Source: Oceanicaulis sp. HTCC2633 (GTDB lineage: Bacteria; Pseudomonadota; Alphaproteobacteria; Caulobacterales; Maricaulaceae). From it: 64,000 bases of DNA. The number at the start of each line of letters is the position of its first letter. Positions within the stretch are counted from its first letter, which is position 1. Under the pieces are notes generated by a model. That model searched no databases and was not told the DNA's origin. It saw nothing but the letters and a program-made list of their open reading frames with translations. Positions 26,823 to 44,588 of the stretch are shown piece after piece. The stretch spans positions 1,140,732-1,204,731 of the forward strand of contig NZ_CH672428.1 of NCBI RefSeq assembly GCF_000152745.1, given 5' to 3'. Both the position numbers and the translations under genes were made by a program.

Positions 26823-28808
26823 CTAGAAGCTGGTCTCCCAGCTCAGCAGACCGTTCGTGCCGGCGAAGAAGAGCACCATCGCCACCGAGGCGATGATCAC
26901 AACACTCCACAGCTTGGCGAACCAGCTCTGGGCGCTGGTCCAGACCACGAAGGCGTTCCAGACCGTCGCCGCCAGCGCAAGATACAACAGGAACTGCGCG
27001 GCGATGGCGATGTAGAGCTGGCTGATGAAGCCCGAACCCAAGCCCGTCAGGTTCGCGAACATGGTCTGGAAGGTCAGCCCCCAGATCAGCAGAAAGGCGA
27101 AGACCAGCACAATGCCGCCGCGAGCGGCGCGATAGGCCAGCGCCTCCCGCCCCGTCAGCGGGAAGGCCCGCTTGTAGCGCCAGCGCACGATTGCGCGGAC
27201 CGGCCAGAGCGCCAATGTCGCCAGAAGCGCCAGGATCGCCAGAATCAGGACCGGGGTCACCAGTGAAGCCGTGCGCCACCAGGGCGCAGGGATCAGATGC
27301 ATGATCGGAGAGACCGGCTCGAAGGTCACATATTCGACCTGACCGTCCTCATCGAGAACGGCGGCCATGCGTTCATACCCGCCCACATGTCGCCAGACGA
27401 ACGGCTCGACCTCTCGCCAGACCACGGGTGGGCCGAACAGCGGAAAGACCAGATCCCCGTCTTCATTCTGCGTAATCGTCGATTGCCCGGCGAAACGCAG
27501 GATGGCGGCGAAATTGGTCTCGATGGTGCGCGAGCTCTCATAGGTCCCGGCGACCAGCGCGCCGTGCTCCATCGCCGTATCCAGGCGCGGCCCGACCGGC
27601 TGGGTGACTTCGGGGAAATAGCGTTCCTCGAACCGCGTGGTCACGGCGAAGCGCAGCGCCCCCGCTTCACCGGCCGGCCCGGTGCTGTACACCGTGACAT
27701 AGATGCCCACGCCGTCATCAAGCATGACGTTGAGGTCGGAGTGGAAGAAATTGGTGTCGCCGCCATGCCCGCGAATGCGCAAATCGCCCTTGTCGAGCTG
27801 CCAGAAGCCCAGCGCCATCGCGTTCAAGGGGGGCGTCAGCGGGTAGAGCGTCTCATACATCTGCTCCCAGGTTTCCGCCGACATGACCTCGGGATTGCGC
27901 TCGAGCAGCGCAATCATGAACCGGCCCATGGCCTCGCCGCTCGCGGCGACCGAGCCGGCGGGCGACATGGGCACCAGCTCGTAATACTGGGCCACGCCAT
28001 CAGATGCGCTGGCATACCCATTGACCATGAAAGGCTCGAACTCGGCCGGCAGAGGCTGGCGGAAGGTCGCCCGCTCCATGCCCATGGGGGCGAAGACATG
28101 CTCGTCCACATAGTCCTCAAAGCCCTGCCCCGTGACGCGTTGAACGATATAGCCTGCGAGCGCCGTGCCGTAATTGGAATAGCCCGGCGTTTCACCCGGC
28201 GGGAAGATCCGTGAGGGCGGCGGCGCCTGTTTGAGAAACTCCTCCAGCGACAGGTTGAGCGCAGGATCCCCGATGATCAGGTTGTAAAGCCGTTCCTGGA
28301 AACCGGCCGTATGGGTCATCAGGTTCCGCATGGTGATCGGTGCGTCGAATGCGTCGGGAATCTCGAAATCGAGATAGGTGTTCACATCCGCGTCGAGATC
28401 GATCCGCCCCGCTTCCACCTGCTGCATGACCGCAATCCAGGTAAAGAGCTTTGAGATAGAGCCCGGCCTGAACATGTCTCCAGACCCGTCCACCGGCGTG
28501 CGCGCCTCGAGGTCGGAGTACCCGAAGCCCCGGGCCGTCAGGATCTCGCCATCCTTCACCACCACAACCTGAGCGCCGACAATATCGGCCACGCTCATGG
28601 CATTGGGCATGAAGCCGTCCAGCCAGGCGTCCACATCGGTGCGGGTCAGACTGGCCGGCCCCTGCGAGACAGGCTCTGGCGTTTCAACACGCGGAACCGG
28701 GCTGTCGAGCGGTTGCGGATCGGCCCCGCCCTCCTGCGCCAGCGCGGTGGCGCAACTGAGCGCCAGCACCAAGCTTCCAAGCCATTTCATCTGCGTTCTC
28801 AAAGACAT
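26823..28808 (-). CDS. SxxK serine hydrolase (beta-lactamase/S12 family) with C-terminal membrane domain
   Basis: About 661 residues. Signal peptide (ends ATALAQE), then a class-C beta-lactamase fold with RPGSISKLF (nucleophile Ser117, Lys120), YSNYG (YxN) and an HGG-type triad in RGHGGDTNF. From about residue 510 there are four to five membrane segments, so the enzyme is tethered with its catalytic part in the periplasm. The start at 28808 has a strong GGGAGG. S12 relatives act on D-amino-acid peptides or esters. It is last in the dgc operon. Its N-terminal half is clearly paralogous to the soluble hydrolase at 41137. Confidence 0.85.
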   Translation of the reverse strand: MSLRTQMKWLGSLVLALSCATALAQEGGADPQPLDSPVPRVETPEPVSQGPASLTRTDVDAWLDGFMPNAMSVADIVGAQVVVVKDGEILTARGFGYSDLEARTPVDGSGDMFRPGSISKLFTWIAVMQQVEAGRIDLDADVNTYLDFEIPDAFDAPITMRNLMTHTAGFQERLYNLIIGDPALNLSLEEFLKQAPPPSRIFPPGETPGYSNYGTALAGYIVQRVTGQGFEDYVDEHVFAPMGMERATFRQPLPAEFEPFMVNGYASASDGVAQYYELVPMSPAGSVAASGEAMGRFMIALLERNPEVMSAETWEQMYETLYPLTPPLNAMALGFWQLDKGDLRIRGHGGDTNFFHSDLNVMLDDGVGIYVTVYSTGPAGEAGALRFAVTTRFEERYFPEVTQPVGPRLDTAMEHGALVAGTYESSRTIETNFAAILRFAGQSTITQNEDGDLVFPLFGPPVVWREVEPFVWRHVGGYERMAAVLDEDGQVEYVTFEPVSPIMHLIPAPWWRTASLVTPVLILAILALLATLALWPVRAIVRWRYKRAFPLTGREALAYRAARGGIVLVFAFLLIWGLTFQTMFANLTGLGSGFISQLYIAIAAQFLLYLALAATVWNAFVVWTSAQSWFAKLWSVVIIASVAMVLFFAGTNGLLSWETSF

Positions 28809-28837
28809 CAACGCCTCCCGACATTTCAGGTGAAAGC

Positions 28838-29974
28838 TCATGGGGCGCCGCCCTGGAGCAGGGTGAACAGACCCACGCCGGCGAAATTGCCCAGCACATA
28901 GCCAAGAATCCCCGTGAGGATTCCGGGCGCGACCAGGTTTCGCCATTTGAAAAGAATTGCGATCGCCGCCGCGATGGGCGGGCCGGCGATACAGGCCAGA
29001 GAGGCGGTGACCATCTCGGCATAGTTCAACTTCAACAACCGCCCGACGGCCAGAACGGCCAGGGCATGCACCACGAAGATGCAGCCCACCATCACGAACA
29101 TGCCCGGCGCGGCCTGCAGCATCTCGCCCAGATCCGCCCCGGCGCCGATGATGGCGAAGAACAGATACATGAACATCATGGCGATCACGTCCTCGCCCTT
29201 CAGTCCTGCGAGCACTGAGCGACCGAGTGTTGCAAGGACGGTCACGATCACCGTCAGGACCAGCATCTCGTAATTGGCGATGCCCAGCGCGGTTGAAACG
29301 GCGCCGCTGACCGCAACAGCCGCCGCTGAAACCGCAAGCGCGGACAGAAGACCGAACAGGCTGGCGCCGCCAGCGTCTGCGTCCTCTACGGGAAGGAGGC
29401 GTTCGCCAAGCCGGTCCGCCCGCCAGCCATACCAGCGCTGGAACAGGCTCCAGCCCGCGGCAAGATTGAGCAGGAGGATGAAGCCGACGCCGAAGATATT
29501 GTCGATGGCGAGCGCAGCCGAGAGCTGGGAGCTGTCCTGCAGGCCCACCGCCTCCGCCACGGCGACGAAATTGAGGGAGCCGCCGGTATAGGTGGCGGCG
29601 AACACGCCGGCGATCCGGGCTTCATTGACGCCCAGATCAACGATCAGCGCCGCGAGCGCCGCACCGGCGATCGTGCCCGCCATCCCGGCCAGGAACGCGA
29701 TCAGGACGCGCCCGCCTTCGGTGAAGACCTTGATCAGGTCCGCCTTGAGCAGAAACAGCGCGATCGCCAGAGGCACCAGATAGGTCCAGATCGTTCCATA
29801 GAGCGGCGCGCTTCTGGGAATGACGCCGAACTGCGCCGCGAGCAGCGCCGTCAGCAGGATGATCCCCGCTCCGGAGATGCGACGTCCCCAGGCTGTGCGT
29901 TCCAGACCCGCGGCCAATGCGCATATGCCCAGAAGCGCCGCCATGAGACCGAAGATGTTCTCCGCTCCGATCAT
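28838..29974 (-). CDS. DUF819 family membrane protein, putative transporter
   Basis: 378 residues, about 10-11 hydrophobic segments. Family pieces include ATYTGGSLNFVAVAEAVGLQ and AIDNIFGVGFILLLN, and a repeat of the inverted kind near AGPPIAAAIAILFKWRNLVAP. DUF819 (YjcL-like) proteins resemble sodium-coupled transporters; the substrate is unknown. Co-transcription with dgcA/dgcN and hydrolases suggests transport of an amino acid or peptide fragment. The start at 29974 has GGGAG. A run of nine G (30010-30018, plus strand) lies between it and dgcA. Confidence 0.82.
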   Translation of the reverse strand: MIGAENIFGLMAALLGICALAAGLERTAWGRRISGAGIILLTALLAAQFGVIPRSAPLYGTIWTYLVPLAIALFLLKADLIKVFTEGGRVLIAFLAGMAGTIAGAALAALIVDLGVNEARIAGVFAATYTGGSLNFVAVAEAVGLQDSSQLSAALAIDNIFGVGFILLLNLAAGWSLFQRWYGWRADRLGERLLPVEDADAGGASLFGLLSALAVSAAAVAVSGAVSTALGIANYEMLVLTVIVTVLATLGRSVLAGLKGEDVIAMMFMYLFFAIIGAGADLGEMLQAAPGMFVMVGCIFVVHALAVLAVGRLLKLNYAEMVTASLACIAGPPIAAAIAILFKWRNLVAPGILTGILGYVLGNFAGVGLFTLLQGGAP

Positions 29975-30023
29975 GAGGCCGCACTCCCACGCTCACGCGC
30001 GAACAGGCAGGGGGGGGGCAGGG

Positions 30024-31007
30024 TCACGCACACCCCCAGAAATTCCGGGTCGGCGCCTCGACCAGCCCCTCATGATAGCGCATGGCCGGCGCAGTATCGG
30101 ATTTGAGATTGAGCGGTCCGTCCAGATCGACGAAGTCGCAAAGCTGGGCGATGACAAAGGCTGGCGCCATGGACAGGGATGTGCCCAGCATATTGCCCAC
30201 CATCAGGCCCTTGCCCGCCGCCCGCGCCTCGCGCGCCAGCAGGAGCGCTTCCGTCAGCCCGCCTGTCTTGTCGAGCTTGATATTGATCATGTCATAGCGG
30301 CCCAGAGCCTGAGCCAGCTCGCCGCGATGCAGGCAGCTTTCATCCGCGCACAGGGGGATCGGGGACTTGAACCCTTCCAGCGCCGCGTCATCGCCGCGCG
30401 GCAAGGGCTGCTCCACCATGGCCACCCCCAGCGCCGCAAAGGGCTCGAGCACGGACTGCAGCATGTCGAATGTGAAGCCCTGATTGGCGTCGATGATGAT
30501 CTGGACATCCGGGCGCGCCTTGCGCACCGCCATGACCCTCTCTACCGGATCCACGCCGTCGAGCTTGATCTTGATGAGCTTGAAATCCCGAGCGCGTGTG
30601 GCCTGTGCGGCCATGAGATCGGGCTGCTTCTGAATGCCCAGCGTGTACGCCGTCCGGCACGGCTGAGGGCGGATGTCCGCCATGTCCCAGACCGATTGAC
30701 CGGTGCTCTTGGCCTCCAGGTCCCACAAGGCGCAATCAACCGCGTTGCGCGCCCCGCCGGCCGGCATCAGATCCAGCAGCCCTTCCCGGGTGATCCCGGC
30801 CTCGATCTCGGCTCGCACCGCCTCGATCTGGTCCAGCATTTCGACGGCGCTTTCCTGAAGATAGTAGACCGGCACGCCCTCTCCCGATCCGCAGACGCCC
30901 TCACGCTCCAGGGTCACGACCACAGCCTCGAGACTGTCAAAGACATGCCCTGTGATGACGAAAGGCGCCGTCATGGGCCAGCTTGTGCGATGCACGCTCA
31001 AACGCAT
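30024..31007 (-). CDS. dgcA: Enolase-superfamily N-acetyl-D-glutamate racemase / dipeptide epimerase (DgcA-like)
   Basis: 327 residues. N-terminal capping domain, then a barrel with the muconate-lactonising-subgroup ligands: LIKIKLDG (KxK acid/base), IIDANQ (metal Asp), MVEQPL (Glu), CADES (Asp) and INIKLDKTGG (second Lys). Paired KxK and Lys residues fit 1,1-proton transfer (epimerase/racemase). Next to a DUF1611 protein this matches DgcA, reported in marine bacteria to convert N-acetyl-D-glutamate to the L form. An L-Ala-D/L-Glu epimerase is the main alternative. It begins 9 bp after dgcN. Confidence 0.8.
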   Translation of the reverse strand: MRLSVHRTSWPMTAPFVITGHVFDSLEAVVVTLEREGVCGSGEGVPVYYLQESAVEMLDQIEAVRAEIEAGITREGLLDLMPAGGARNAVDCALWDLEAKSTGQSVWDMADIRPQPCRTAYTLGIQKQPDLMAAQATRARDFKLIKIKLDGVDPVERVMAVRKARPDVQIIIDANQGFTFDMLQSVLEPFAALGVAMVEQPLPRGDDAALEGFKSPIPLCADESCLHRGELAQALGRYDMINIKLDKTGGLTEALLLAREARAAGKGLMVGNMLGTSLSMAPAFVIAQLCDFVDLDGPLNLKSDTAPAMRYHEGLVEAPTRNFWGCA

Positions 31008-31016
31008 GGGGAAGTC

Positions 31017-32093
31017 CTATTCTTCAAGCAGTTTGTCGACGATGCGGGCCGTGCCGTCCCGGATCGGATCGGCGACCGGAAGGCCCGTCTCGCGTTCATA
31101 GCGGGTAAAGAGCTCGCGCCGCTCGGCATCGGAGAGCGAGGAGCTGTTCACCGACAGCCCCACAAAGCGCGCTTTGGGATTCACCCGGCGGGCGAAGGTC
31201 AGGCATTGCTCGATGGCTTCCGGGATCGGCAGGATCGGAAATTCCTGACGGTCCTGAGCGCCCAGCAGATAGGTGCGCGACGGGTCGTGACAGAGCACCA
31301 GCGCATCAGGCTGTGCGCCGTGAAGCAGGCCCAGACTGACCCCGGCGAAGCTGGGATGAGACAAGGCGCCCTGACCTTCGATGACGTCCCAATGGTCCGA
31401 CGCAGCCGCCGGCGAGAGCATCTCGGCGGCGCCGGACAGGAAGTCGGACACCACGCAATCCATGGGCACGCCCGTTCCGGCGATCATGATGCCGGTCTGT
31501 CCGGTGGCGCGGAAATCGGCGTCGAGTCCGCGCCGACGCATTTCCTGTTCAATCGCCAGGGCGGTGTACTTCTTGCCGACGGCGCAATCGGTGCCCACGG
31601 TCAGAAGTCGCTTGCCCGGGCGCTTTGTCCCGACCCCGATCGGAATGGTCTTTGGCGGCGTCCGCACATCGATCAGCCGCGCGCCGGACGCGCGCGCCGC
31701 CATGGCGATTTCCGGAAAATCTGACAGGCGCACATGCATGCCGGACACGACATCGAGACCGGCGCGCGCCGCTTCAGCCAGATCCTTCACCCAGGCGCGC
31801 GGAATTGAGCCGCCCTCGGAGGCGACGCCGATTATGATCGAGCCCAGCCCCTGGGCGGCCGCCTCGGTCACGCTCATATCGCGCAGACCGCCATCGACCT
31901 GGCATCCGGCAGCGCGCAACTGCCCAGCGCAGAGCTCGCGTCGCCACTGGATCAGGCCGAGACCTGTCTTGGCGTGACCGTAATCGCGGACATCCCCGAA
32001 ATAGATCAGATAGGGAGGCTTGAGCTGGACCGCGCTGAGCCCGTCCGGGGCGACGGCTTCGCCGTGGAGTTCGTCATGACTGGCGAGAGACAC
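31017..32093 (-). CDS. dgcN: DUF1611 protein, D-glutamate N-acetyltransferase DgcN-like
   Basis: 358 residues. An N-terminal Rossmann-like half and a C-terminal P-loop half with VGTDCAVGKKYTALAIEQEM (Walker A), ATGQTGIMIAG, and IEGQGALSHPSFAGVSLGLL. This is the DUF1611 architecture. Reported DgcN acetylates D-glutamate so that DgcA can racemise it; that role is from the family, not visible in residues. The GTG start at 32093 has GGAGG 6 bases upstream. The gene overlaps the transporter gene by 20 bp, so translation is probably coupled. Confidence 0.83.
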   Translation of the reverse strand: MSLASHDELHGEAVAPDGLSAVQLKPPYLIYFGDVRDYGHAKTGLGLIQWRRELCAGQLRAAGCQVDGGLRDMSVTEAAAQGLGSIIIGVASEGGSIPRAWVKDLAEAARAGLDVVSGMHVRLSDFPEIAMAARASGARLIDVRTPPKTIPIGVGTKRPGKRLLTVGTDCAVGKKYTALAIEQEMRRRGLDADFRATGQTGIMIAGTGVPMDCVVSDFLSGAAEMLSPAAASDHWDVIEGQGALSHPSFAGVSLGLLHGAQPDALVLCHDPSRTYLLGAQDRQEFPILPIPEAIEQCLTFARRVNPKARFVGLSVNSSSLSDAERRELFTRYERETGLPVADPIRDGTARIVDKLLEE

Positions 32094-33216
32094 GGGGTTC
32101 CTCCGTAACTGGATTGTCAGACGCTGCGATCCTGAAAATGCCGAGCGTCAGCAATGGCGCGACGACCACTGCGATGAAGGCGTAAGAAAGGGCGCCATAG
32201 CCGCCCGCGATGAGGTCGATGATCCCGACGGCCTCGGCCAGGAAAATCGCGATGGCGAGAAATCCGGTGGCGAGCACGAAGCGCGCCCATTGGGGGAGAC
32301 GGCGTCCGCTGGCCTTGAGCGCGATGGCGACGCGTTCGTTGATGGCGTGGATGATCCCGACCCCGGTTTCCACGAAGGTGCCGAAGAGAACGACCTGGAA
32401 GGCCGCCGCGAGCCAGACCGCATTGAGCGAGCCCAGAAGGACCACCACCGGAACCGCTTCGGTCTCGATGCCGGGAAACCGGGCCAGCATGGCGATGAAG
32501 ACAAGAACGCCGGGCAATATGCTGACCGCCCCGGCGATGGCGCCGGACGTCACCGCTTCCCGCCGCGTCTTCAGGTTCGGAAGGACGAACAGGACGGCGG
32601 CGAATGCGACCAGATTGTAAGCGGCGTAGCGCACGCCATCGAGCACCCAGTTGCCCTCGGCGCTCGCGCCTGAAAGGGCGGAGGCTATGGCCTCGCCCTG
32701 GGAAACGCTGACCCAGACAAAGAACACGCCGTACAGGCTGAACAGCAGCACGGACCACCAGGTCATGACCTTCGCGATCGCGCCGCCTCCGAAAAAGGCG
32801 AGGACGCCAATGGTCAACAGCAATCCCAGCGCGCCAACCACGGTGGGCGCCCCGAAAGCGGTGGCGATCATCTGCCCGGCGGCGGAGCCCAGCACCGACA
32901 GGACCAGCAGGGCGATCAGAAGATACAGGATTTCAAACAGACGCCAGAACGGCCCCAGCAGAGCCGAGAAGAAAGTCTTGTAGTCATAGCCCTTGAACAC
33001 CCGGGCGAACTCGAAGCCGACAGCGAGCAGCACGGCCCAGGTCAACGCCGTCACGCCAAAGCCCAGCAAGCCGCCAAGCGCGCCATGAGACAGGAAGTAT
33101 TCCGCGATTTCCCGTCCCGTGCCGTAGCCGCCGCCAATAATGACGGACTGGAACACCAGGCCTGGCAAAAGGTAGGTCTTGAAAATGGAGGTCATGTCAT
33201 TCGCTAACGCATTCAT
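32074..33216 (-). CDS. YkvI-type multi-spanning transporter (APC/LeuT-like)
   Basis: About 380 residues with about ten membrane segments. The first helix has the broken Gly-rich motif SVIIGGGYGTGREIAEYF, the type of unwound helix seen in LeuT-fold carriers. It looks like the YkvI family of membrane proteins. It lies between the TonB-dependent receptor and dgcN, so uptake of a D-amino acid or small peptide is a sensible guess. The start is uncertain: ATG 33216 or 33195, neither with a strong ribosome site. Confidence 0.75.
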   Translation of the reverse strand: MNALANDMTSIFKTYLLPGLVFQSVIIGGGYGTGREIAEYFLSHGALGGLLGFGVTALTWAVLLAVGFEFARVFKGYDYKTFFSALLGPFWRLFEILYLLIALLVLSVLGSAAGQMIATAFGAPTVVGALGLLLTIGVLAFFGGGAIAKVMTWWSVLLFSLYGVFFVWVSVSQGEAIASALSGASAEGNWVLDGVRYAAYNLVAFAAVLFVLPNLKTRREAVTSGAIAGAVSILPGVLVFIAMLARFPGIETEAVPVVVLLGSLNAVWLAAAFQVVLFGTFVETGVGIIHAINERVAIALKASGRRLPQWARFVLATGFLAIAIFLAEAVGIIDLIAGGYGALSYAFIAVVVAPLLTLGIFRIAASDNPVTEEPRVSRQS

Positions 33217-33295
33217 GTCTGGACCCGGCTCGACTGCCGCGCCCCGGTCCGGCGAGCCCAGGGGAAAGCTCGCCGGACACATGTCGCCGCGTCCC

Positions 33296-35635
33296 CTAGT
33301 AGCGCAGGGAGAGGCTCAGCCCGACCGCACGCGGCCGGTTGACGCTCGCGGCGATGATGGGCGCATCAAGCGCGCCGTCCGCCGTCACGAACTGCTGGAG
33401 CGGGTTCGATCCGATGCTGACCGCCTCGACATCATTCAGCAGGTTCGTGCCGTACAGGTGCAGACCCCACCGATCATTCGAGACGCCAATCCGCAGGTTC
33501 AGCAGCTCCAGGGAATCAAGTTCCGCGGACTCAAAGTTCTGAACGTTGGAGAAGCGTTGCCCGACATACTGGAAGGAGCCGTTGGAGTTCAGGCTCCAGC
33601 CTGACGCGCCGATCGGCCGCTCGAAGGAGTAACCGGCGGCAAGCGTGTATTCGGGAATATTGGCCGGAGCATTGCCCTTGCGCAGGTCAAACTGGCCATA
33701 GGTCCCGCCGGGCGCGGAAGTGATCAGCTTGCCCTGATCGAACTCGGCGTCGATGACCGAGAGGTTCAGGAAGGTCGACAGGCTGTCATTGACCTGCAGC
33801 CGGGTTTCCAGCTCAAGACCCAGAATGGTTTGTTCAGGCCCGTTCACCGTGTTGTTGGCCGGCGTGTTCACCTGGATCTGGGTGTCTTCATAAGTGGTGT
33901 GGAAGACGCCGAGATTGGTGATCAGATCACCATCGAACCAGGAGGCTTTCACCCCTGCATCCACCGACAGCACCTGATCATCGTCGAAGGTCAGGTTCTG
34001 GAAGAACACATCCTGGCTGCCGCCCGATGCGCCCAGGGCGGCAATGGCGTTGCCGATGCCGCCATTGCGCGCGCCCTGCGCAATGTTGGCGTAGAGCAGC
34101 ATGTCTTCGGACAGCTCGAACTCCACGCCGGCACGCGGCAGGAATTTTTCAAGCTCGAACTCGAACTCGGTGCCGAAGCCGGCGCCGGTCAAAAGATCCA
34201 GCGTGCTGACAAAGCCGATCGGGTTGCTTTCCGTCCAGGGAATGAGATTGCCCTGGCCGTCAAACTGGGGAACGAGGTTCACCACATCATCCTGTTGGAG
34301 AATGGCCGTGACGGTGTCGTTCACATAGCGGACGCCGCCAATCAGGCGCAGACGCTCGGTCAGCTCGAACGTGAATTCGGCAAAGGCGGAATACTGTTCA
34401 GACTGGGTGCTGGACAAGCGGGTCGCAAGATTCGAGCTCGACGGATTGGTCACGGTGACGAACCCGTCGCCGGTCAGGAATTGACCGCTGACATCCTCGC
34501 GATCGCGATAATAGACGCCGGCGGTGAAATTCAGCGGACCGCTGAAGTCTGACACGAACCGGAACTCCTGGGAGAATTGTTCGAACTCGCTGGAGCTCGT
34601 GTTGAACGCCGTCGTGTCAATCGTCGGAAAGAAGGGCGCCAGGCCGAAAGAATTGCCTGCGCTGAACAGGGCCGAGGCCGTGCTGCGCTCGTAATAACCG
34701 GTGATCGAGGTCACATCGATCGCGTCAAAGCTGTAGGTGACCCGCCCGGCGTACAGATCGAAATCGTCGGTGTAGCTGCCAGAGCGCGGCGACGCCGAGA
34801 AGGTCAGGTCCTCGGGATCCGAGCCGGGATCGATCTGGGTGGATTCCCCGAGTTCGTCCCGGGACAGGAAGGCCGAGAGCCTGACTTCCAGCCGGGGCGA
34901 CAATTGCGCCAGAAGAACGGCGCGACCGCCGCTGGTCTCGAAATCGTTGACGTCCTCTCCCTCGCTGGGATTGTCGATGAAGCCGTCATCGTTGCGATGG
35001 AAACCGGACAGGCGCAGGCCGACCTTGCCCGGCACGAGCACCAGCGAGGTCGCGTTCTGGACCGTGTAGGCCGTCCCGCCATCGGTAATGGTTTCATAGC
35101 GCCCCGCCGCTTCGCCGGTGATGCGCGGACCGTCCAGATCGGGATCGTTGGTGAAATAGCGGATCACCCCGCCGACCGCGCCTTCACCGAACAGGGTCGG
35201 CTGCGGTCCGCGAATGACCTCGATCCGGTTCAGGTCAACAGAACTGAAGTCCCGCAGATTGCCGGCGCCCGTGACCGAGACATCATCGACAAATACGCTG
35301 AAGACCGTGCTGGTTTCATATCCGCTGCCTGCGCTGCGCACGCCGCGGATCGCAATGTCATTGGAGTTCTGACGCGTCTTCACGTTCGCCATGCCGGCAA
35401 TGCTTCGCGCCAGATCCTCGATGTCCTGAATGCCCCGCTCCCGGATTTCCGCTCCCGAAATGCCGGCGACGCTGGCGCCGATATCCTGGACCGTCTCCTC
35501 CCGGAACCGCGCGGTCACGGTAATCACATCGTCCGTCACAGACCGGACGTCGGCGTCCGGGCTCGTTTCCTGGGCGGCCACGGGGGCCGCGAACGCAACG
35601 CTGGCCAGCAGCGCTATTCTCAGATGATTGGTCAT
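33296..35635 (-). CDS. TonB-dependent outer-membrane receptor
   Basis: 779 residues with a signal peptide (ends PVAAQE). Plug domain: the VITVTARFREETVQDI region is the likely TonB box, then IRGVRSAGSGYET and VIRGPQPTLFGEGAVGGVIR. A 22-strand-type barrel follows, ending in the classical C-terminal aromatic (LSLSLRY). It is the first gene of the minus-strand set. Its ligand is inferred from context (D-amino-acid peptides or peptidoglycan fragments) rather than from residues. The operator-like sequence at 35684-35703 lies 49 bp upstream of the start. Confidence 0.93.
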   Translation of the reverse strand: MTNHLRIALLASVAFAAPVAAQETSPDADVRSVTDDVITVTARFREETVQDIGASVAGISGAEIRERGIQDIEDLARSIAGMANVKTRQNSNDIAIRGVRSAGSGYETSTVFSVFVDDVSVTGAGNLRDFSSVDLNRIEVIRGPQPTLFGEGAVGGVIRYFTNDPDLDGPRITGEAAGRYETITDGGTAYTVQNATSLVLVPGKVGLRLSGFHRNDDGFIDNPSEGEDVNDFETSGGRAVLLAQLSPRLEVRLSAFLSRDELGESTQIDPGSDPEDLTFSASPRSGSYTDDFDLYAGRVTYSFDAIDVTSITGYYERSTASALFSAGNSFGLAPFFPTIDTTAFNTSSSEFEQFSQEFRFVSDFSGPLNFTAGVYYRDREDVSGQFLTGDGFVTVTNPSSSNLATRLSSTQSEQYSAFAEFTFELTERLRLIGGVRYVNDTVTAILQQDDVVNLVPQFDGQGNLIPWTESNPIGFVSTLDLLTGAGFGTEFEFELEKFLPRAGVEFELSEDMLLYANIAQGARNGGIGNAIAALGASGGSQDVFFQNLTFDDDQVLSVDAGVKASWFDGDLITNLGVFHTTYEDTQIQVNTPANNTVNGPEQTILGLELETRLQVNDSLSTFLNLSVIDAEFDQGKLITSAPGGTYGQFDLRKGNAPANIPEYTLAAGYSFERPIGASGWSLNSNGSFQYVGQRFSNVQNFESAELDSLELLNLRIGVSNDRWGLHLYGTNLLNDVEAVSIGSNPLQQFVTADGALDAPIIAASVNRPRAVGLSLSLRY

Positions 35636-36697: not shown

Positions 36698-37888
36698 ATG
36701 GCCAATCTGACGCACAGGACCGCAGCGAAACAGACTGGCGCAACACGGCGCCGCCTTCTGAAGGGCGGCCTCGCCGCAGCGCTTGCAGCCCCCATGATCA
36801 ATTCGGGTCAGTTCAAGGTCTTCGCTCAATCTCAGCGCACTTATTCCGCCCGCACGATCGAGCTGATCGAGAACAATGTCGTCATCGACATGCTCTCGAT
36901 CATCGCCGATCTCGGCGACATGCTCGACGCCATGTACAGTCCGCGTCCCAAGCTCGAAGACGGGTTGGGCGTCACCGACGAGCACCTTGAGAAACTGCGC
37001 AGCTCCGGCGTCAATGTCTTCCACCCTGCGGTGGGTCTGGGCGGACGCGACAGCGCCCTCTCCTTCATCGCGAGACTGAACGCCTATGCCGCCGAACGCC
37101 CCGACGTGTTCCGCCGCATCGACGCGGTCGAGGATTTCGATCGCGTGATGGAAGAGGGCCGGCTCGGCTATATCGTGGGGGTCCAGAACGCCCATCATTT
37201 CGATGCGCCGGACGATGTGAACGAGTTCTACACGCTGGGACAGCGGGTCAGCCAGCTCACCTACAATTCACAGAACCGGATCGGCGCCGGCTCCACCGAA
37301 CGCGTGGATGGGGGGATCACCCATTTCGGCGCCGCCATCGTGGCCCGCATGAACGAGGTGGGGATGGCGGTGGATGTATCCCATTGCGGCGACCGGACCA
37401 CGCTGGACGCCTTTGAATTGTCCACCGCGCCTGTCCTGATCACGCATTCGAACGCCCGCGCCCTGGTCGGCGACCATCCGCGGGCCAAGCCCGACGAGGC
37501 GATCCAGGCCATGGCGCGCTCAGGCGGCGTGATGGGCATTTCCGGCGTACGCAATTTCGTACGCGACCGCGAACCCACGACCATCGAGCACATGCTGGAC
37601 CATTACGACTATGTGGCGCGCCTTGTCGGCGTGGAGCATGTGGGAATCGGCACGGACATGGATGCGGACGGATATGACGATGTCTCGCCTGCCGCACATG
37701 CCCGACTGACCAGCGGGTATGACGAGTCCTACGCCTTCCGAGGCCGTATCGACACCGATGGTTTCGATACGCCGCAGAAAATCTTCAATCTGACCGAAGG
37801 GCTGATCCGGCGCGGTTATTCCGACACCGATATCGCGCTCATGCTCGGCGGCAACTTCAAACGCGTGCTTGGCGAAATCTGGAAATAA
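36698..37888 (+). CDS. Tat-exported M19 (membrane dipeptidase) homologue with altered metal site
   Basis: About 396 residues. A twin-arginine signal (TRRRLLKGGLAAALAAP) predicts export in folded form. It retains M19 barrel motifs VDVSHCGDRTTLDA (His), LITHSNARAL (His) and GIGTDMDADG (Asp). However, the usual N-terminal HxD zinc ligands are replaced (VIDMLSII in place of the usual IDGHND) and the bridging Glu is replaced (GVQNAHHF in place of IEGGH). M19 enzymes cleave dipeptides, including L-D dipeptides. The substitutions suggest a divergent subfamily with one metal or another reaction. The start at 36698 has GAGGAAG. Confidence 0.85.
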   Translation: MANLTHRTAAKQTGATRRRLLKGGLAAALAAPMINSGQFKVFAQSQRTYSARTIELIENNVVIDMLSIIADLGDMLDAMYSPRPKLEDGLGVTDEHLEKLRSSGVNVFHPAVGLGGRDSALSFIARLNAYAAERPDVFRRIDAVEDFDRVMEEGRLGYIVGVQNAHHFDAPDDVNEFYTLGQRVSQLTYNSQNRIGAGSTERVDGGITHFGAAIVARMNEVGMAVDVSHCGDRTTLDAFELSTAPVLITHSNARALVGDHPRAKPDEAIQAMARSGGVMGISGVRNFVRDREPTTIEHMLDHYDYVARLVGVEHVGIGTDMDADGYDDVSPAAHARLTSGYDESYAFRGRIDTDGFDTPQKIFNLTEGLIRRGYSDTDIALMLGGNFKRVLGEIWK

Positions 37889-37924
37889 AAAACACGCCGC
37901 TTCGCGCACCGAGGGGAGAGTACA

Positions 37925-39487
37925 ATGACACGCACTGCATTTGCTGCGGCCGCGACCGCCTTGCTGTTGGGCTCGGCGACTGCGTCCGCTCAGGAACTCA
38001 CAGCCGAACGAGCGAGCGCGGCGGCCAGGCAGGCCGTCGAGGATTTTGATGTGACCGGGCTCTCCGTTGCGGTCGTGAAGGGCGATGAAATCGTCTTCAT
38101 GAACAGCTATGGCGTGCGGGATGTCCGTCAGCCGGATGTGCCGGTGACCACTGACACGATCTTTCCCTTCGCCTCGGTCAGCAAGGCCTTCACGACCACG
38201 GCGATCGCCATGCTGGTTGATGACGGGGTGATGGACTGGGATGACCCGGTCCGGGACTTCATCCCGGAATTCGAGATGTCCGATCCCTACATCACCGCGG
38301 AATTCTCTGTGCGGGACCTCGTCACCCACCGTTCGGGCCTGCCGCTGGGCGCGGGTGATCTGCTGGTCTTCCCCGATGGAAAGCCCGAAGTCTCAGACAT
38401 TCTGGCTGCGATCCGCAACATCCCGCCGGCCACCAGCTTCCGCTCCGAATACGCCTACGACAATCTGATGTACATCATCGCCGGCGAAGTGGTCGCACGC
38501 GCAGCCGGCCAGCCCTGGCACGATGTGATTGACGACCGGATCTTCACGCCGCTTGGCATGGACAGCTGCGAAGCCCTGCCCTCCGAAGCCGCAGCGGCGG
38601 AGAACACCGTCACCCAGCACACCCGCGCGCCGGGACAGACCGAAGCCGTCCCGATCGACCCGCTTTACATCATTGGCGACAGCACCTCTCCGGCAGGCGG
38701 GCTGAGCTGCTCCATCGCCGACCTCGCGATCTGGGCCCAGTTCTGGCTCAATGAAGGCGTAGGTCCGGATGGCGAGCGCCTGCTGTCAGAAGGCCAGGTT
38801 GCAGAGTTGTGGTCGCCCGTTACGCCGCAATCTGTGAGCCCCCTGCTGGCGCAGCTCGCAGACTCCCATTTCTCGCTCTATGCGCATGGCTGGTCTGTGC
38901 GGGATTTTCACGGCGAGTATTTCGTCGGCCATAGCGGCGGCCTTCTGGGCGCCTCCTCCTATCTCGGCCTCCTCCCCGATCAGGACATAGCCGTAGTGGT
39001 GACCAGCAATGTGTCGACCTACGCCTCGACCGCTCTGGCCCTGCAGCTGCTCAGCGACGCCGCAGCCCCCGAGGCGGAAGCGGACTGGCTGGGCCTTTTG
39101 CAAAGCGTCTACGCCGCCAATCGTGAAACGGCCCTCGAGGACTCAGGCGCTGGCGAAACGGCCGATGTCGCTATCGAGCCGGTGCGCGATCTGGATGATT
39201 ATTCCGGAGAGTATATCGATCCCTGGTACGGGCTTGTGACCATCGAGCAGCGCGAGGACGGCCTGTTCATCGACATGAGCCGGTCCGAGGTGCTGGACGC
39301 ACCGCTGATCGCCGTTGCGCCGGACCGGTTTGTAGCGCGCTGGCCGGACCGCAGCCTGAATGCGGACGCCTATGTGGATTTCACCGTGGTAGACGGACAG
39401 GTCACCGGCATGACCATGCAGGCGGTGTCAGAGACCACTGACTTCTCCTTCGATTTCCACGATCTCGATTTCACCAAGCGCGACTAG
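37925..39487 (+). CDS. Periplasmic SxxK serine hydrolase (beta-lactamase/S12 family)
   Basis: 520 residues with a signal peptide (ends ATASAQE). The class-C/S12 triad is present: FASVSKAF (Ser84, Lys87), the YAYDNLMY YxN site near 178, and HSGG near 336. About 110 C-terminal residues form a separate beta-rich domain (DDYSGEYIDPWYGLVTIEQR), like the C-terminal domains often found on these proteins. Likely a D-amino-acid-peptide or ester hydrolase; it could also be a D-Ala-D-Ala-type peptidase. It is 36 bp after the M19 gene in the same operon. Confidence 0.88.
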   Translation: MTRTAFAAAATALLLGSATASAQELTAERASAAARQAVEDFDVTGLSVAVVKGDEIVFMNSYGVRDVRQPDVPVTTDTIFPFASVSKAFTTTAIAMLVDDGVMDWDDPVRDFIPEFEMSDPYITAEFSVRDLVTHRSGLPLGAGDLLVFPDGKPEVSDILAAIRNIPPATSFRSEYAYDNLMYIIAGEVVARAAGQPWHDVIDDRIFTPLGMDSCEALPSEAAAAENTVTQHTRAPGQTEAVPIDPLYIIGDSTSPAGGLSCSIADLAIWAQFWLNEGVGPDGERLLSEGQVAELWSPVTPQSVSPLLAQLADSHFSLYAHGWSVRDFHGEYFVGHSGGLLGASSYLGLLPDQDIAVVVTSNVSTYASTALALQLLSDAAAPEAEADWLGLLQSVYAANRETALEDSGAGETADVAIEPVRDLDDYSGEYIDPWYGLVTIEQREDGLFIDMSRSEVLDAPLIAVAPDRFVARWPDRSLNADAYVDFTVVDGQVTGMTMQAVSETTDFSFDFHDLDFTKRD

Positions 39488-39527
39488 GCCGGAAGGCCGG
39501 TCCAACGCCTGCAAGGAGGTCCGGACC

Positions 39528-41072
39528 ATGCTCAAGACACTGACCCTGGGACTGGCGCTCGCGGCGGCTTCAGCCCCCGCACTCGCTCAGGGCGCCCAGC
39601 CCTATGACATCGTCATCCTCGAAGGACGCGTGATCGATCCCGAAACCGGTCTCGACACGATCCGTAACGTGGCGATCCGCGATGATGAGATCGCGCTGAT
39701 CACCGAAGACCCGATCGAGGGGGAACTCGTGATCAACGCAACGGGTCTCGTCGTCGCTCCCGGGTTCATCGACCTTCACGCGCATGGCCAGACCCTCCTG
39801 GCGGGCCGCGTTCAGGCGCTGGATGGCGTTACGACCGCCCTTGAACTTGAGGCCGGGGTTTATCCTGTTGCGGACTTCTATGCAGACGCCGCCGAAGAGG
39901 GCCGCACGATCAATTATGGCGCCGCGGTCAACTGGGCGGCCGCCCGCAACGCGGTGCTGACCGGCGCCGAGCCTGATGAGGCCGGTGCGCTTCACGCCCA
40001 TGAGGACGGGCCGGACTGGCGCTACACGCCGGCCAGTGCAGAGCAGACCGCCACCGTCCTGGAACGCGTGCGGGACGGTCTGAATGAAGGCGCGCTCGGC
40101 ATTGGCGTTCTGCTGGGTTATGTGCCCGGATCGGGACGGTCGGAATATTACGCCCTGCACGAGCTGGCCGCTGCCTATGACGTGCCCAGCTTCACCCATG
40201 CGCGGTATCTGTCGAATCTCGAACCGGACAGCTCGCTTGAAGGCTTTCAGGAAATGATCGCCGTCTCCGCCGCAACGGGCGCGGACATGCACATTTCCCA
40301 CCTCAACAGCATCAGCCTGCGCGACATCAATGTCATTCGCCCCATGATCGAGGCGGCTCAGGCGCACGGCGTGAACATCACGGTGGAAGCCTATCCGTAT
40401 GGCGCAGGTTCGACCTCCATCGGGACAGCGCTGTTCGAAGGCGCAGACTGGCAGGCCCGGTTCGGCGGCATCGAGAAATCCGATTTCACCCTCGCCGGAA
40501 CGCCCTTGAGCGATGAGGCCTTCGACCGCCTGCAGGCGGAGGCCCCGGACACCACGATCGTGGTGCACTTCCTCGATATCGAGAACGACCCCGCCGACCG
40601 GGCCATCCTGTCCCAGTCCATCCTGTTTCCGGGCGGCTCCATCGCGTCTGACGGCGGCGACTGGATGGTGAACGGAGAGGTCTTGCCGGCGGAGACCTGG
40701 CCGCTGCCTGACAATGCGGATTCTCACCCGCGCAGCGCCGGCACCTTCTCGCGGTTCCTGCGTGAATATGTGCGTGAGCGCGAAGCGATCAGTCTGAGTG
40801 AGGCCTTGGCGAAAACCAGCCTCATCCCCGCCCGGATCCTGGCGGACGCCGTGCCCCAGATGCGCCGCAAGGGACGCCTGCAAGCGGGAATGGACGCGGA
40901 CATCGTGATTTTCGATCTCGCCACGGTCAGCGACCAGGCGACCTATGAGGCGCCCGCCCGGACATCGACTGGCTATTCCTACGTGATCGTCGGCGGGACG
41001 CCGGTCGTTCGCGAAGGCCGGCTCGATACCGAGGTCCGGCCCGGACGACCGGTCCGGCGACCGACGCAATAG
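39528..41072 (+). CDS. Secreted N-acyl-D-amino-acid deacylase-like amidohydrolase
   Basis: 514 residues with a signal peptide (ends APALAQG). Amidohydrolase barrel: FIDLHAHGQT (HxH), ALELEAGVYP (Glu/Cys position), THARYL and HISHLN (His ligands), SIASDGGDWM (catalytic Asp). The C-terminal beta domain ends with RKGRLQAGMDADIVIFD. The arrangement is that of D-aminoacylase/N-acyl-D-glutamate deacylase. It would release D-amino acids from N-acylated forms in the periplasm. Its position beside dgcN/dgcA-linked genes supports a D-amino-acid role. It is 40 bp after the preceding hydrolase. Confidence 0.87.
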   Translation: MLKTLTLGLALAAASAPALAQGAQPYDIVILEGRVIDPETGLDTIRNVAIRDDEIALITEDPIEGELVINATGLVVAPGFIDLHAHGQTLLAGRVQALDGVTTALELEAGVYPVADFYADAAEEGRTINYGAAVNWAAARNAVLTGAEPDEAGALHAHEDGPDWRYTPASAEQTATVLERVRDGLNEGALGIGVLLGYVPGSGRSEYYALHELAAAYDVPSFTHARYLSNLEPDSSLEGFQEMIAVSAATGADMHISHLNSISLRDINVIRPMIEAAQAHGVNITVEAYPYGAGSTSIGTALFEGADWQARFGGIEKSDFTLAGTPLSDEAFDRLQAEAPDTTIVVHFLDIENDPADRAILSQSILFPGGSIASDGGDWMVNGEVLPAETWPLPDNADSHPRSAGTFSRFLREYVREREAISLSEALAKTSLIPARILADAVPQMRRKGRLQAGMDADIVIFDLATVSDQATYEAPARTSTGYSYVIVGGTPVVREGRLDTEVRPGRPVRRPTQ

Positions 41073-41136
41073 CCCAGCTCCGCCCGGACACCGCCGAACA
41101 AGGCGGGCCGGCGACCCGTCACATGGGGAGAGAAGT

Positions 41137-42642
41137 GTGACCTGGAAACAGAAGAGAACCGTCTGGCGTGGCGCCATCGCCGCCTTCGCCCTGATCACAG
41201 CCTTGCCGGCCCCTGTCCTGGCGCAAGCCGGGGGCGCAGGGGGCGCGCTCAGCGAGATGCAGCCTGCTCATCTGGCAGGCCTTCAAGACTTCGTTGATGG
41301 CGTGATGGCCCAGCAGATCGTCAGCCATGAACTGGCGGGCGCGACCCTGGCCGTGGTGCATGAGGGCGAGATCCTGTTCTCGGCCGGCTACGGCTTTTCC
41401 GATATCGAGGCAGGCGCGCCAGTGGACCCGGCGCAGACCCTGTTCCGCCCGGGATCGGTGTCCAAGCTCTTCACCTGGACCGCTTTGATGCAACAGGTTG
41501 AAGCTGGGCGCGTGGCGCAGGACGCGGATGTGAACAGCTATCTCGATTTCGAGATTCCGCCCTTTGAGGGCGCGCCGGTCCGCATCGTCGACCTGATGTC
41601 TCACAGTCCGGGCATGAGCGATGTGAGCGGCATAACCGCGCCCACCGTCGAAGAACTCACGCCCTACGATCTCTGGATCAGGGACAATGTGCCCGAGCGC
41701 TTATGGGCGCCCGGCAAGGAAGCGGCCTATTCCAATTACGGCACGGCTCTGGCCGGTTACATCGTCGAACGGGTGTCCGGCGAGCCGTTCGCCGATTATG
41801 TCGAGCGTCACATCTTCACGCCGCTGGGCATGACCTCCACCAGCTTCCGCGAACCCTTGCCCGAGGCGCTTCAGCCGCGCATGGCCAGGGGATACGAGCT
41901 GGAGAACGGACGCCTGGTCGAGCAGCCTTTCGAGCTGTTCAGCAATATCATGCCCGCGGGCTCCGCCTCCTCGACCGCACATGACATGGCGCGCTTCATG
42001 CTCGCCATGCTCAATGACGGCGTCTATGAGGGCGCGCGCATTCTCGAACCGTCTTCGGTGTCCACACTGTTCAGCGACAGTCTGCGCAACGCACCGGACC
42101 TGCCGGGCATGGCGCACGGCTTTTATGTGGTGCGCGAAGCGGGCCCCCGGCTCGTCGGGCATGCCGGCAATACCGGCGACTTTCACTCCAATCTGATCCT
42201 GGCGCCGGAACACGGCTTCGGTTTCTTCGTGTCCACAACAGGCGGCGCTGAAAGTTCGGCGGCGCGCACCGACCTGTCCAACGCCATTATCGGACGGGTC
42301 TTCCCCGAGACCCCTGCCCCGCGTCAGGCGCGCCCCGCCGGTGAAGTATCTCCGGCAGGGACCTATCGCGTGAACCGCCGCAATTATTCGCGCCCGCCGA
42401 ACGAAGCCTATGACATTACAGTCGAGCGCGTCGGCGAAGACGGGCTGGAAATCACCAATCAGGGCGAGACGACCTATTGGGAGCGGATCGGACCGCTGAC
42501 CTATGAAAAGGTCACGGGCGCGCGCAATGGCGGACCCTATGAGCGCATCCAGTTCCATGGCGGCGACGAGACGCTCGTCCTGTCCTTCAATTCCCAACCT
42601 TACATGGCCTATCGCCGCCTTGCGGCCGAGGAGCAAGACTGA
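41137..42642 (+). CDS. Periplasmic SxxK serine hydrolase (beta-lactamase/S12 family)
   Basis: 501 residues. GTG start with GGGGAGA upstream and a signal peptide ending PVLAQA. Active-site motifs are RPGSVSKLF (Ser107, Lys110), YSNYG near 198 and GHAGNTGDF (HxG type). Long stretches match the minus-strand enzyme at 26823 (for example LFTWxxxMQQVEAGR and LDFEIP), so the two are paralogues; this one lacks the membrane domain. Its stop overlaps the next start by one base (TGATG). Probable role is hydrolysis of D-amino-acid-containing peptides. Confidence 0.87.
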   Translation: MTWKQKRTVWRGAIAAFALITALPAPVLAQAGGAGGALSEMQPAHLAGLQDFVDGVMAQQIVSHELAGATLAVVHEGEILFSAGYGFSDIEAGAPVDPAQTLFRPGSVSKLFTWTALMQQVEAGRVAQDADVNSYLDFEIPPFEGAPVRIVDLMSHSPGMSDVSGITAPTVEELTPYDLWIRDNVPERLWAPGKEAAYSNYGTALAGYIVERVSGEPFADYVERHIFTPLGMTSTSFREPLPEALQPRMARGYELENGRLVEQPFELFSNIMPAGSASSTAHDMARFMLAMLNDGVYEGARILEPSSVSTLFSDSLRNAPDLPGMAHGFYVVREAGPRLVGHAGNTGDFHSNLILAPEHGFGFFVSTTGGAESSAARTDLSNAIIGRVFPETPAPRQARPAGEVSPAGTYRVNRRNYSRPPNEAYDITVERVGEDGLEITNQGETTYWERIGPLTYEKVTGARNGGPYERIQFHGGDETLVLSFNSQPYMAYRRLAAEEQD

Positions 42643-44588
42643 TGACCCTGCCCGATTTGAAAACCCTCGCCTCCGTGGTCGCGCTGTCGGCGGCCGCATT
42701 CGGAACCCCGGCGCTGGCGCAGGACGCGCCTGAGCTGACTCAGCCCGAGAACTGGAGCCTCGAGCAATCAGACAGCGTATCGGTCGTCACCGCCCCCGAA
42801 GGCAATCTCGACATAGCGGTGATCGAGGTCGGACCGGCCGAGGACGCGCTGGCCGCCGCTAACGCCGCCTGGGCGCTTTATGATGCGGACGCCGGACGCG
42901 AGGTCGAGCTGACCACCAACGCCGCGCCGGACAATGGCTGGGAAGAACGCGTCTCGATCAGCTATGTCACCGCCCCGTCCGAACAGGCGATCGTCAGCGC
43001 CCTGGCCCTGCGTCAGGGCGAAAACTGGACGGTGATCATCGTCAACGGCGCCCAGTCGACCGCCAATGTTCGCTCCGCCGCCCTGTCCCTTGTGCGTGAT
43101 TCCGTTCGCGCGGAAGGCTTCGAGCAGGAGGATTTTTCCGGTCAGACCGCCCATCCGCTGACCGCGGAGCGCATCGCCGCGCTCCGCGATTTCGTCGCCG
43201 AAGCCGCAGAGCTGCTTGATGTCCCCGGCGTCGGGCTGGCGCTGATTGATCAGGGCGAGGTCGTCTATGAAGGCGGGGTCGGCGTGCGCGAGCTGGGCGG
43301 TGATGCGCCGGTGACCGCAGACACCAAGTTCATGATCGCATCCAACACCAAGGGCATGTCCACGCTGCTGCTGTCCATCCTGGTGGATCAGGGCTTGCTG
43401 GACTGGGACCAGCCTGTGGTCGATCTCTATCCGTCCTTCCGTCTGGGCTCGGATGAAACCACCAACGCCACGCTGGTCCGTCATCTTCTCTGCGCGTGTA
43501 CGGGCCTGCCGCGCAAGGACTGGGGCTTCATCCTCGCGGATCTTGATACGCCCGCTTCAGACGTCTTCCGCCAACTGTCCGAAACCGCGCCGACGAGCGC
43601 TTTCGGAGAACTGTTCCAGTACAACAACAATATGGCGGCGGCCGCAGGCTATGTGGGCGGTGCGCTCGCCTATCCCGACATGGAGCTGGGCGCCGCTTAT
43701 GACCGCGCCATGGAAGAGCTGATCTTTGAACCGCTCCACATGGATGACACCACCTTCGATTACGCTGAGGGTGAAGCGGGGAACTGGGCGCCGCCGCACG
43801 GGCTGAACATCGACGGCGAACAGACCGTAATGTCCAACTATTTCAATCAGAGCGTCTATCCCTATCGTCCGGCGGGCGGGGCCTTCTCGACGGCGTCGGA
43901 TATGGCCCATTACGTCCAGCTTGAGCTGTCCAGGGGGCTTACGCCGGAGGGCGAGCGTCTCGTCAGCGAGGAAAACCTGCTGGCCCGGCGCGAGCCCGGC
44001 GTTCAGGTCGGAGAAGGCGTCTGGTACGGCATGGGTCTGTTCAATGAGGAGCATTGGGGCGTCCCCGTCGTCACCCATGGCGGCACGCTCGTCGGCTATC
44101 ACAGCAACTGGTACGCCCTGCCCGAGGCCGGCGTCGGCGCGGTGATCCTGACCAATGCCGATACAGGCGCAGCCATTCTGCGACCCTTCCTGCGCCGTCT
44201 GGTGGAAGTGCTCTATGATGGCCGCCCTGAAGCCATGGCGGAAATCGAGGCCATGGCGGCAAGCCTGCAAGCCCAGGCCAGCGCTCGGCGCGAAGGCCTG
44301 ACCCTGCCCGGCGACCCCGAAGTGCTCGACGCCCTGGCGTCTCGCTATGAAAGCCCGGGCCTGGGGCCCCTCAGCATTTTCGAACAGGATGGCGAGACCT
44401 GGGTCGAGGCCGGCGCCATTCGCGCCCCCATCGCCACGCGTGTGAACGCGGACGGCACCGTCTCCATCGTGTCGGTGGGCCCCGGCATCATCAGTCTGGA
44501 AGCGGAGATCGGCGAACAGGACGGGCTTCGCACACTGACAGCGCGCGATAGTCAGCACGAATATGTCTATGTGGAGGCTGAAACCTAG
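42642..44588 (+). CDS. SxxK serine hydrolase with extra N-terminal domain
   Basis: 648 residues with a signal peptide (ends PALAQD). Residues 30-170 form an additional beta/alpha domain of unknown type (NWSLEQSDSVSVVTAPEGNL and on). The S12 catalytic fold follows: IASNTKGMS (Ser near 234, SxxK), QYNNNMAAA (YxN, near 326) and THGGTLVGYHSN near 479. A short beta domain ends the protein. It is the last gene of the plus-strand operon and is translationally coupled to the preceding one. A terminator follows 29 bp after its stop. Confidence 0.85.
   Translation: MTLPDLKTLASVVALSAAAFGTPALAQDAPELTQPENWSLEQSDSVSVVTAPEGNLDIAVIEVGPAEDALAAANAAWALYDADAGREVELTTNAAPDNGWEERVSISYVTAPSEQAIVSALALRQGENWTVIIVNGAQSTANVRSAALSLVRDSVRAEGFEQEDFSGQTAHPLTAERIAALRDFVAEAAELLDVPGVGLALIDQGEVVYEGGVGVRELGGDAPVTADTKFMIASNTKGMSTLLLSILVDQGLLDWDQPVVDLYPSFRLGSDETTNATLVRHLLCACTGLPRKDWGFILADLDTPASDVFRQLSETAPTSAFGELFQYNNNMAAAAGYVGGALAYPDMELGAAYDRAMEELIFEPLHMDDTTFDYAEGEAGNWAPPHGLNIDGEQTVMSNYFNQSVYPYRPAGGAFSTASDMAHYVQLELSRGLTPEGERLVSEENLLARREPGVQVGEGVWYGMGLFNEEHWGVPVVTHGGTLVGYHSNWYALPEAGVGAVILTNADTGAAILRPFLRRLVEVLYDGRPEAMAEIEAMAASLQAQASARREGLTLPGDPEVLDALASRYESPGLGPLSIFEQDGETWVEAGAIRAPIATRVNADGTVSIVSVGPGIISLEAEIGEQDGLRTLTARDSQHEYVYVEAET

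Follow-up and report, generated by a model that had tools for sequence, protein, structure and literature searches.

Gene content and layout of the locus

The stretch of DNA analysed here (the window) comprises 64,000 nucleotides of Oceanicaulis sp. HTCC2633 and contains two divergent operons arranged around one GntR/FCD regulator, with 12 genes at window positions 26823-44588. Besides dgcN and dgcA, these genes encode a TonB-dependent receptor, two predicted transporters and six hydrolases with export signals, and we examined them as a candidate system for scavenging D-glutamate. Open reading frames together with Pfam and NCBIfam matches located all 12 genes where the initial annotation, made from the sequence alone, had put them. 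Signal peptides and hydrophobic stretches were read by eye from the translations and not with a predictor.

26381-44706, no strand: present/absent cassette without counterpart in the sister genome G096 (blastn of the window against locus L215 of G096)
26823-28946, minus: S12a, S12 serine hydrolase with C-terminal hydrophobic stretches (PF00144, 1.6e-56; SxxK at 163, YSN at 256, HGG at 394)
28838-29974, minus: DUF819 membrane protein, predicted transporter of the CPA/AT clan (PF05684, 2e-54)
30024-31007, minus: dgcA, N-acetyl-D-glutamate racemase by family (NF042940, 426 bits, cut-off 400)
31017-32093, minus: dgcN, D-glutamate N-acetyltransferase (DUF1611) by family (NF041892, 450 bits, cut-off 480; best solved relative 7xrj, 1.3e-96)
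32074-33282, minus: YkvI-type transporter, LeuT/APC fold by model, predicted D-glutamate importer (no Pfam or NCBIfam match)
33296-35635, minus: TonB-dependent outer-membrane receptor (PF00593 and PF07715; 75-81% identity in four other cassettes)
35680-35705, no strand: half-sites resembling an operator (CCTTA...CCTTAT), upstream of the TonB operon, a conserved block in the TonB/GntR gaps of five cassettes, weaker than the palindrome
35869-36585, minus: GntR/FCD regulator (PF07729, 1.4e-11, over cut-off; PF00392, 9.1e-06, 25.7 bits, just under 27; 82-86% identity in four other cassettes)
36615-36634, no strand: perfect palindrome GCCTTATTTTAAAATAAGGC in the GntR/M19 gap, predicted GntR operator (in 5/5 cassettes)
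36680-37888, plus: M19 homologue with twin-arginine signal, of a subfamily without HxD and bridging Glu (PF01244, 2.5e-73)
37925-39487, plus: S12b, S12 serine hydrolase with DUF3471 and signal peptide (PF00144, 1.1e-64; PF11954, 4.2e-19)
39528-41072, plus: amidohydrolase with signal peptide, predicted N-acyl-D-glutamate deacylase (NF006560, 677 bits, cut-off 340; best solved relative 3gip, 1.4e-27)
41137-42642, plus: S12c, S12 serine hydrolase with signal peptide (PF00144, 1.1e-59)
42642-44588, plus: S12d, S12 serine hydrolase with N-terminal extension and signal peptide (PF00144, 3e-51)

Gene spacing was tight: dgcA and dgcN are 9 bp apart, dgcN overlaps ykvI by 20 bp, ykvI is separated from the TonB gene by 13 bp, and S12c and S12d overlap by 1 bp. 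As an open reading frame S12a overlaps DUF819 by 109 bp; the position of its signal peptide, however, suggests that translation probably begins near 28808. DgcA scored above its curated cut-off, and DgcN carries the motif GTDCAVGKK. By family assignment, DgcN would acetylate D-glutamate and DgcA would racemise the resulting N-acetyl-D-glutamate to N-acetyl-L-glutamate.

All four S12 proteins contain the SxxK, YxN and HxG motifs, and their solved relatives include the peptidase ClbP. Motifs of the M19 and amidohydrolase proteins were counted over the best 120 homologues listed for each, which for M19 were 120 of 7,297 and included the window's own protein. In all 120 M19 homologues the His of the HxD motif was Leu, its Asp a non-acidic residue and the bridging Glu a Gln; we take HxD and the bridging Glu to be standard metal ligands. 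The two later His residues and the Asp are retained. The HxH and the later His and Asp ligands of the amidohydrolase were found in 119 to 120 of its 120 listed homologues, which, at the positions of the Cys ligand and the SHHK Lys of characterised D-aminoacylases, have Ala, Ser, Gly or Val and Asn, respectively. Some sources name relatives of this amidohydrolase, whose nearest solved relative is itself an N-acyl-D-glutamate deacylase (3gip), N-acyl-D-glutamate deacylase, a naming that may be automatic. The initial annotation had argued that the M19 and D-aminoacylase families act on D-residues, which is not directly transferable to these proteins with their altered M19 metal site and altered Cys and Lys positions.

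Several relatives of the YkvI-type protein are named 'membrane protein YkvI' by their sources. The window protein matched no Pfam or NCBIfam model at default threshold and no Pfam model at E up to 5, and a sequence search of solved structures returned nothing at E up to 1. Its structural model showed a LeuT/APC fold, with a best Foldseek match at 2.1e-05 (TM 0.64, root-mean-square deviation 6.4) and E-values that are modest. Judged by this model the protein is a LeuT-fold transporter, and we predict that it imports D-glutamate or a small D-glutamate compound. The other membrane protein belongs to DUF819, which an excerpt of PMC8396727 places in the CPA/AT clan.

A present/absent cassette and its predicted operator

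Comparison of the window with locus L215 of the close sister genome G096 by blastn revealed an empty site. Window positions 19746-26380 and 44707-47103 matched L215 positions 9921-16598 and 16703-19106, both flanks adjoining with 104 bp between them, and the flanking M24 gene was 91% identical in the two genomes. Because the G096 flanks meet across these 104 bp, the ~18 kb form one cassette that a genome has either complete or not at all, and the coordinates of the initial annotation mark a real unit. The same 12 genes, in the same order and on the same strands, occur in four other Maricaulaceae genomes (G070, G077, G079, whose contig is that of L087, and G083, which is Marinicauda pacifica), which is the conserved synteny that had been proposed as a check. 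Identity to the window genes across these four cassettes was 67-86%, except for S12a of G083 (45%).

DgcN matches turned up in 26 of the 137 genomes of the family (own included). Around 28 of the 34 DgcN places listed, spread over 25 other genomes, we looked for the window genes; this set left out the window's own place, a weak DUF1611 match in G042 and four fragments in G011. Among the 14 other genomes of the genus, dgcN was present in 10, never in this cassette, and 4 had no DgcN match. Horizontal transfer is the likely explanation for this distribution. The two cassette ends (26331-26830 and 44581-44760) had no common direct or inverted word longer than 10 bp, and therefore we propose no transposition mechanism.

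A wider locus that took in the D-glutamate-cyclase-like, aldehyde dehydrogenase (ALDH), SDR and M24 genes next door was considered and dropped, since no orthologues of these genes were found beside the four other cassettes; this check extended on one side over ~0.6 kb in G070 and ~1.9 kb in G077. The sole SDR near another cassette (in G079) was 28% identical and ~9 kb away. All four genes stand side by side at the G096 empty site. Just left of the cassette lies a stand-alone D-glutamate-cyclase-like C-terminal domain protein (PF14336, 23974-24888), followed by the aldehyde dehydrogenase, and both are placed outside the cassette because both are present at the empty site.

The 94 bp gap between the GntR and M19 genes contains the palindrome, which was found in all five cassettes, with exact arms in three and one mismatch in two. 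It is the only site in its own genome at one mismatch or fewer. G107 had no match to the palindrome pattern at this threshold. The reversed pattern, used as a control, matched once in G079 and once in G050. The exact operator core matched three times among 208 loci, always inside full cassettes; the two cassettes missing from this search each have one mismatch. The putative operator is therefore a trait of this cassette rather than of dgcN loci at large. Its conservation leads us to predict one GntR operator system serving both operons.

Recurrence of the gene families around dgcN

From a scan of a genome collection, the best 80 of at least 578 confirmed relatives were kept as named dgcN loci. 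Most belong to Alpha- and Gammaproteobacteria, the rest to Bacteroidota and a few other groups, and many are cut off at contig ends. Matches were found to DgcA in 69 of these loci, YkvI in 34, TonB in 23, the deacylase in 21, M19 in 20, S12a in 19, S12b in 18, S12c in 15, GntR in 9, DUF819 in 4 and S12d in 2; the comparison genes gave 4 for ALDH, 3 for DPP4, 2 for SDR and 1 for LytTR. The 52 loci of at least 19 kb were then set against 40 random 20 kb regions, with YkvI in 23 versus 0, any S12 in 29 versus 2, the deacylase in 15 versus 0, M19 in 18 versus 0 and TonB in 21 versus 2. One-sided p values for these five ranged from 7e-5 to 1e-7, to be read as a guide only because the random regions were all from Maricaulaceae and the loci share ancestry. 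The excess was smaller for GntR (p 0.03) and DUF819 (p 0.18), and none was significant for six flanking or remote genes of the window (ALDH 3 versus 0, p 0.18; SDR 1 versus 4; DPP4 3 versus 3; LytTR 1 versus 1; two with none). The YkvI, S12, deacylase, TonB and M19 genes thus recur near dgcN, in shuffled order. The initial annotation had made its reading depend on co-occurrence in relatives, and the same families do recur around dgcN in Alpha- and Gammaproteobacteria.

These counts bear on the possibility that the S12 genes are beta-lactamases or esterases lying beside dgcN-dgcA by chance. Class C beta-lactamases and esterases both belong to the S12 family, four of the genome's 21 S12 genes are in this locus, and the only NCBIfam match of S12d is an esterase-type model, far under its cut-off. 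Even so, such an accident is highly improbable given the excess of S12 genes in dgcN loci over random regions and given that all beta-lactamase models among the matches listed were far under cut-off for the four proteins. When the 21 genes were placed at random, some 17.8 kb stretch held at least four in 84 of 20,000 placements, so that four together are more than chance.

Open reading frames were also clustered over 93 loci, consisting of the 80 named loci, 12 from the family and the window, with two genomes counted twice. Clusters containing window genes covered DgcN in 92 loci, DgcA in 81, YkvI in 47, S12a/c in 45, the deacylase in 34, TonB in 28 and 10, M19 in 27, S12b/d in 22, GntR in 15 and DUF819 in 9. 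Another 90 unlabelled clusters occurred in at least three loci; 63 of these did not coincide with any labelled gene, and ten were scanned with Pfam. The ten comprised two regulators (HTH-cupin in 26 loci, Lrp/AsnC in 10), two aminotransferases (class III in 6, class I/II in 4), a D-amino-acid transaminase (4), an ELFV (Glu/Leu/Phe/Val) dehydrogenase (6), a C26 gamma-glutamyl-type peptidase (5), an ABC ATPase (8), a TonB receptor (5) and a FecR protein (4). The view that the accessory families are the sole recurrent neighbours of dgcN is therefore too strong, as the HTH-cupin and other clusters recur too. The HTH-cupin protein (for example L155 2729-3454, and in 25 other dgcN loci) is weakly PuuR-like (48 bits, cut-off 211) and is likely an alternative regulator where the cassette has GntR. 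The transaminase (385 bits, cut-off 320) lies near dgcN-dgcA at L110 11982-12869 and also in L145, L150 and L152, and is possibly a second route for D-amino acids; together with the ELFV dehydrogenase and the C26 peptidase, it fits amino-acid use. Loci L100 and L136 each carry two dgcN genes less than 10 kb apart.

The C26 peptidase is also a point in favour of muropeptide use, in which DgcA would serve as L-Ala-D/L-Glu epimerase and peptidoglycan stem peptides would be the substrates cut by M19 and S12. DgcA is related to the epimerase 1jpd (5.8e-78), and 11 of 32 M19 open reading frames near dgcN have HxD and Glu, the other 21 being of the Leu/Gln type (two from the genomes counted twice), with both types in five loci. 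Nevertheless, DgcA falls under the epimerase cut-off (307 versus 343 bits) and accompanies DgcN in most of the named loci, and neither an amidase nor an LD-carboxypeptidase nor any other enzyme specific to peptidoglycan could be recognised in the labelled clusters or in the ten scanned in addition, most minor clusters being unscanned. We consider muropeptide use distinctly unlikely, and the tie to peptidoglycan drawn in the initial annotation gained no support from this set.

Across the 137 family genomes, YkvI was found in 15 (own included) and lay ~2 kb or less from dgcN in 14 of them, a joint presence with p 2.8e-11 when relatedness is not corrected. In the sole carrier without dgcN, YkvI lies beside DUF819, S12, TonB and M81 genes and an MR_MLE enzyme nearest to L-Ala-D/L-Glu epimerase, which we count in favour of a role with D-glutamate. 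At L206 9415-12372, a YkvI-type transporter and an S15/CocE hydrolase are joined in one 986-aa open frame; that locus also has DUF819, MR_MLE, S12, TonB and M81 genes, and its genome has no DgcN match. At the level of the class, the deacylase was not borne out as an obligate partner of dgcN, standing beside it in one of nine genomes. A lower-scoring deacylase is beside dgcN in G245, an alphaproteobacterium of another family, where dgcN-dgcA adjoins a divergent D-aminoacylase-type gene (L208 7371-10865).

M81/MlrC is known from microcystin degradation, and its presence in the YkvI locus of G107 and ~4.6 kb from the second dgcN of G070 raises the possibility that the cassette degrades a D-glutamate-bearing natural product (a cyclic or lipidated peptide) and not general debris, with DgcN-DgcA disposing of the freed D-glutamate. 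Four S12 hydrolases with ClbP among their solved relatives would suit this, as would a mobile cassette, which is fitting for a specialised substrate. Against it, M81 went unmatched in the own genome and in all but one (G070) of the four other cassette genomes, and comparable sets of genes are found in many distant Alpha- and Gammaproteobacteria; a natural product is accordingly an unlikely substrate, though the least unlikely of the alternatives. Microcystin degradation as such was rejected on the negative M81 search of the own genome, a search shown to work by its three matches in G107 and one in G070. The coordinates of this M81 and dgcN-dgcA neighbourhood in G070 are G070:C1:247507-248364 and 252932-253909.

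Proposed route and relation to known systems

Taken together, we favour a reading in which the ~18-kb cassette probably scavenges D-glutamate from D-glutamate peptides or N-acyl-D-glutamate conjugates. The TonB receptor would carry a conjugate across the outer membrane, and the six hydrolases bearing export signals (S12a-d, the M19-like protein and the amidohydrolase) would trim it and free D-glutamate in the periplasm, in an order of steps that we can only infer, as we do the substrates. YkvI would then bring D-glutamate or a small D-glutamate compound into the cell, and DUF819 may import a second product. DgcN would acetylate D-glutamate and DgcA would racemise the product, returning it to ordinary metabolism as N-acetyl-L-glutamate. 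GntR is predicted to bind the 36615-36634 palindrome and the half-sites near 35680-35705, tying both operons to one signal. The outer-membrane-to-cytoplasm layout suggested in the initial annotation fits the export signals.

Several observations weigh against this reading. DgcN matches NF041892 over its full length but falls short of the cut-off, as it does in 23 of the 26 family genomes with a DgcN match, and 12 of those 26 have no YkvI. The window M19 protein has LxI and Gln in place of HxD and the bridging Glu, and the amidohydrolase is without the Cys and the SHHK Lys of characterised D-aminoacylases. Among 289 class genomes, nine have an over-cut-off deacylase, and the own genome is the sole one of these in which it adjoins dgcN. 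DUF819 (3) and GntR (6) are rare in the 52 longer dgcN loci; an HTH-cupin regulator, in 26 of the 93 clustered loci, is a commoner neighbour of dgcN. The ancestry shared by these loci and the restriction of the random regions to Maricaulaceae temper the p values. The palindrome pattern is not exclusive, with one further one-mismatch site each in G070, G077 and G050, the G070 site being in its own TonB/GntR gap.

More tentatively, and with somewhat less than even confidence, the cassette may be a complete outer-membrane-to-cytoplasm system for D-glutamate conjugates that moves horizontally under GntR control, with YkvI as the D-glutamate importer and with the Leu/Gln-type M19 proteins and exported PRK09061 amidohydrolases as two new periplasmic subfamilies that free D-glutamate. 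According to excerpts of PMC10845958, D-glutamate is a basic residue of peptidoglycan, itself an important part of marine refractory dissolved organic matter, and eight possible D-glutamate transport genes are mentioned in a Shewanella. The literature found gave no settled account of how D-glutamate is released from bound forms, nor of its importer. The linkage described here supplies named candidates for each step of D-glutamate scavenging, and candidate functions for the YkvI family, which sources call uncharacterised, and for the M19 subfamily with an altered metal site.

Elsewhere in the window, a 2187-aa protein with Calx-beta, Big_12 and DUF7933 domains (47566-54129) and a 1659-aa autotransporter (56296-61275) flank a LytTR two-component pair. 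Within the SDR gene, ARAGORN called a minus-strand tRNA-Lys (45251-45337) that is probably false.

The cassette shares features with several described systems. Like the M19 renal dipeptidase family (3id7; 2i5g), its M19 domain keeps both later His and the Asp, but it differs in having Leu, a non-acidic residue and Gln for the HxD His, Asp and bridging Glu, a Gln that 2i5g shares. Its amidohydrolase resembles N-acyl-D-glutamate deacylase (3gip/3giq) in the HxH and later metal ligands, and differs in its export signal and in having Ala and Asn at the Cys and Lys positions. The mlr microcystin cluster has an S12 hydrolase (MlrB) and a transporter around a D-glutamate peptide, as the cassette has S12 hydrolases and a transporter, whereas M81 (MlrC) has no match in the own genome. 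Bacillus subtilis ykfABCD and Escherichia coli ycjG are murein-peptide genes that likewise combine an MR_MLE epimerase, peptidases and transport for D-glutamate peptides; unlike the cassette, they are not known to include an N-acetyltransferase or an outer-membrane receptor.

The closest relation is to the DgcN-DgcA pathway, which was reportedly described by Yu et al. in the ISME J in 2023 as converting D-glutamate to N-acetyl-L-glutamate, and which has DgcR as its described regulator. The pathway is also named in excerpts of PMC10845958 and PMC12363236. A literature search, which took in few subscription papers, found no account of the accessory gene set. The earlier claim of an undescribed system thus holds for the accessory set, which was not found in the literature, and not for the DgcN-DgcA core, which is already known. 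Like that pathway, the cassette has dgcN and dgcA adjacent with the same family assignments; unlike in that pathway, the pair here shares one unit with a GntR regulator, a TonB receptor, two transporters and six exported hydrolases.

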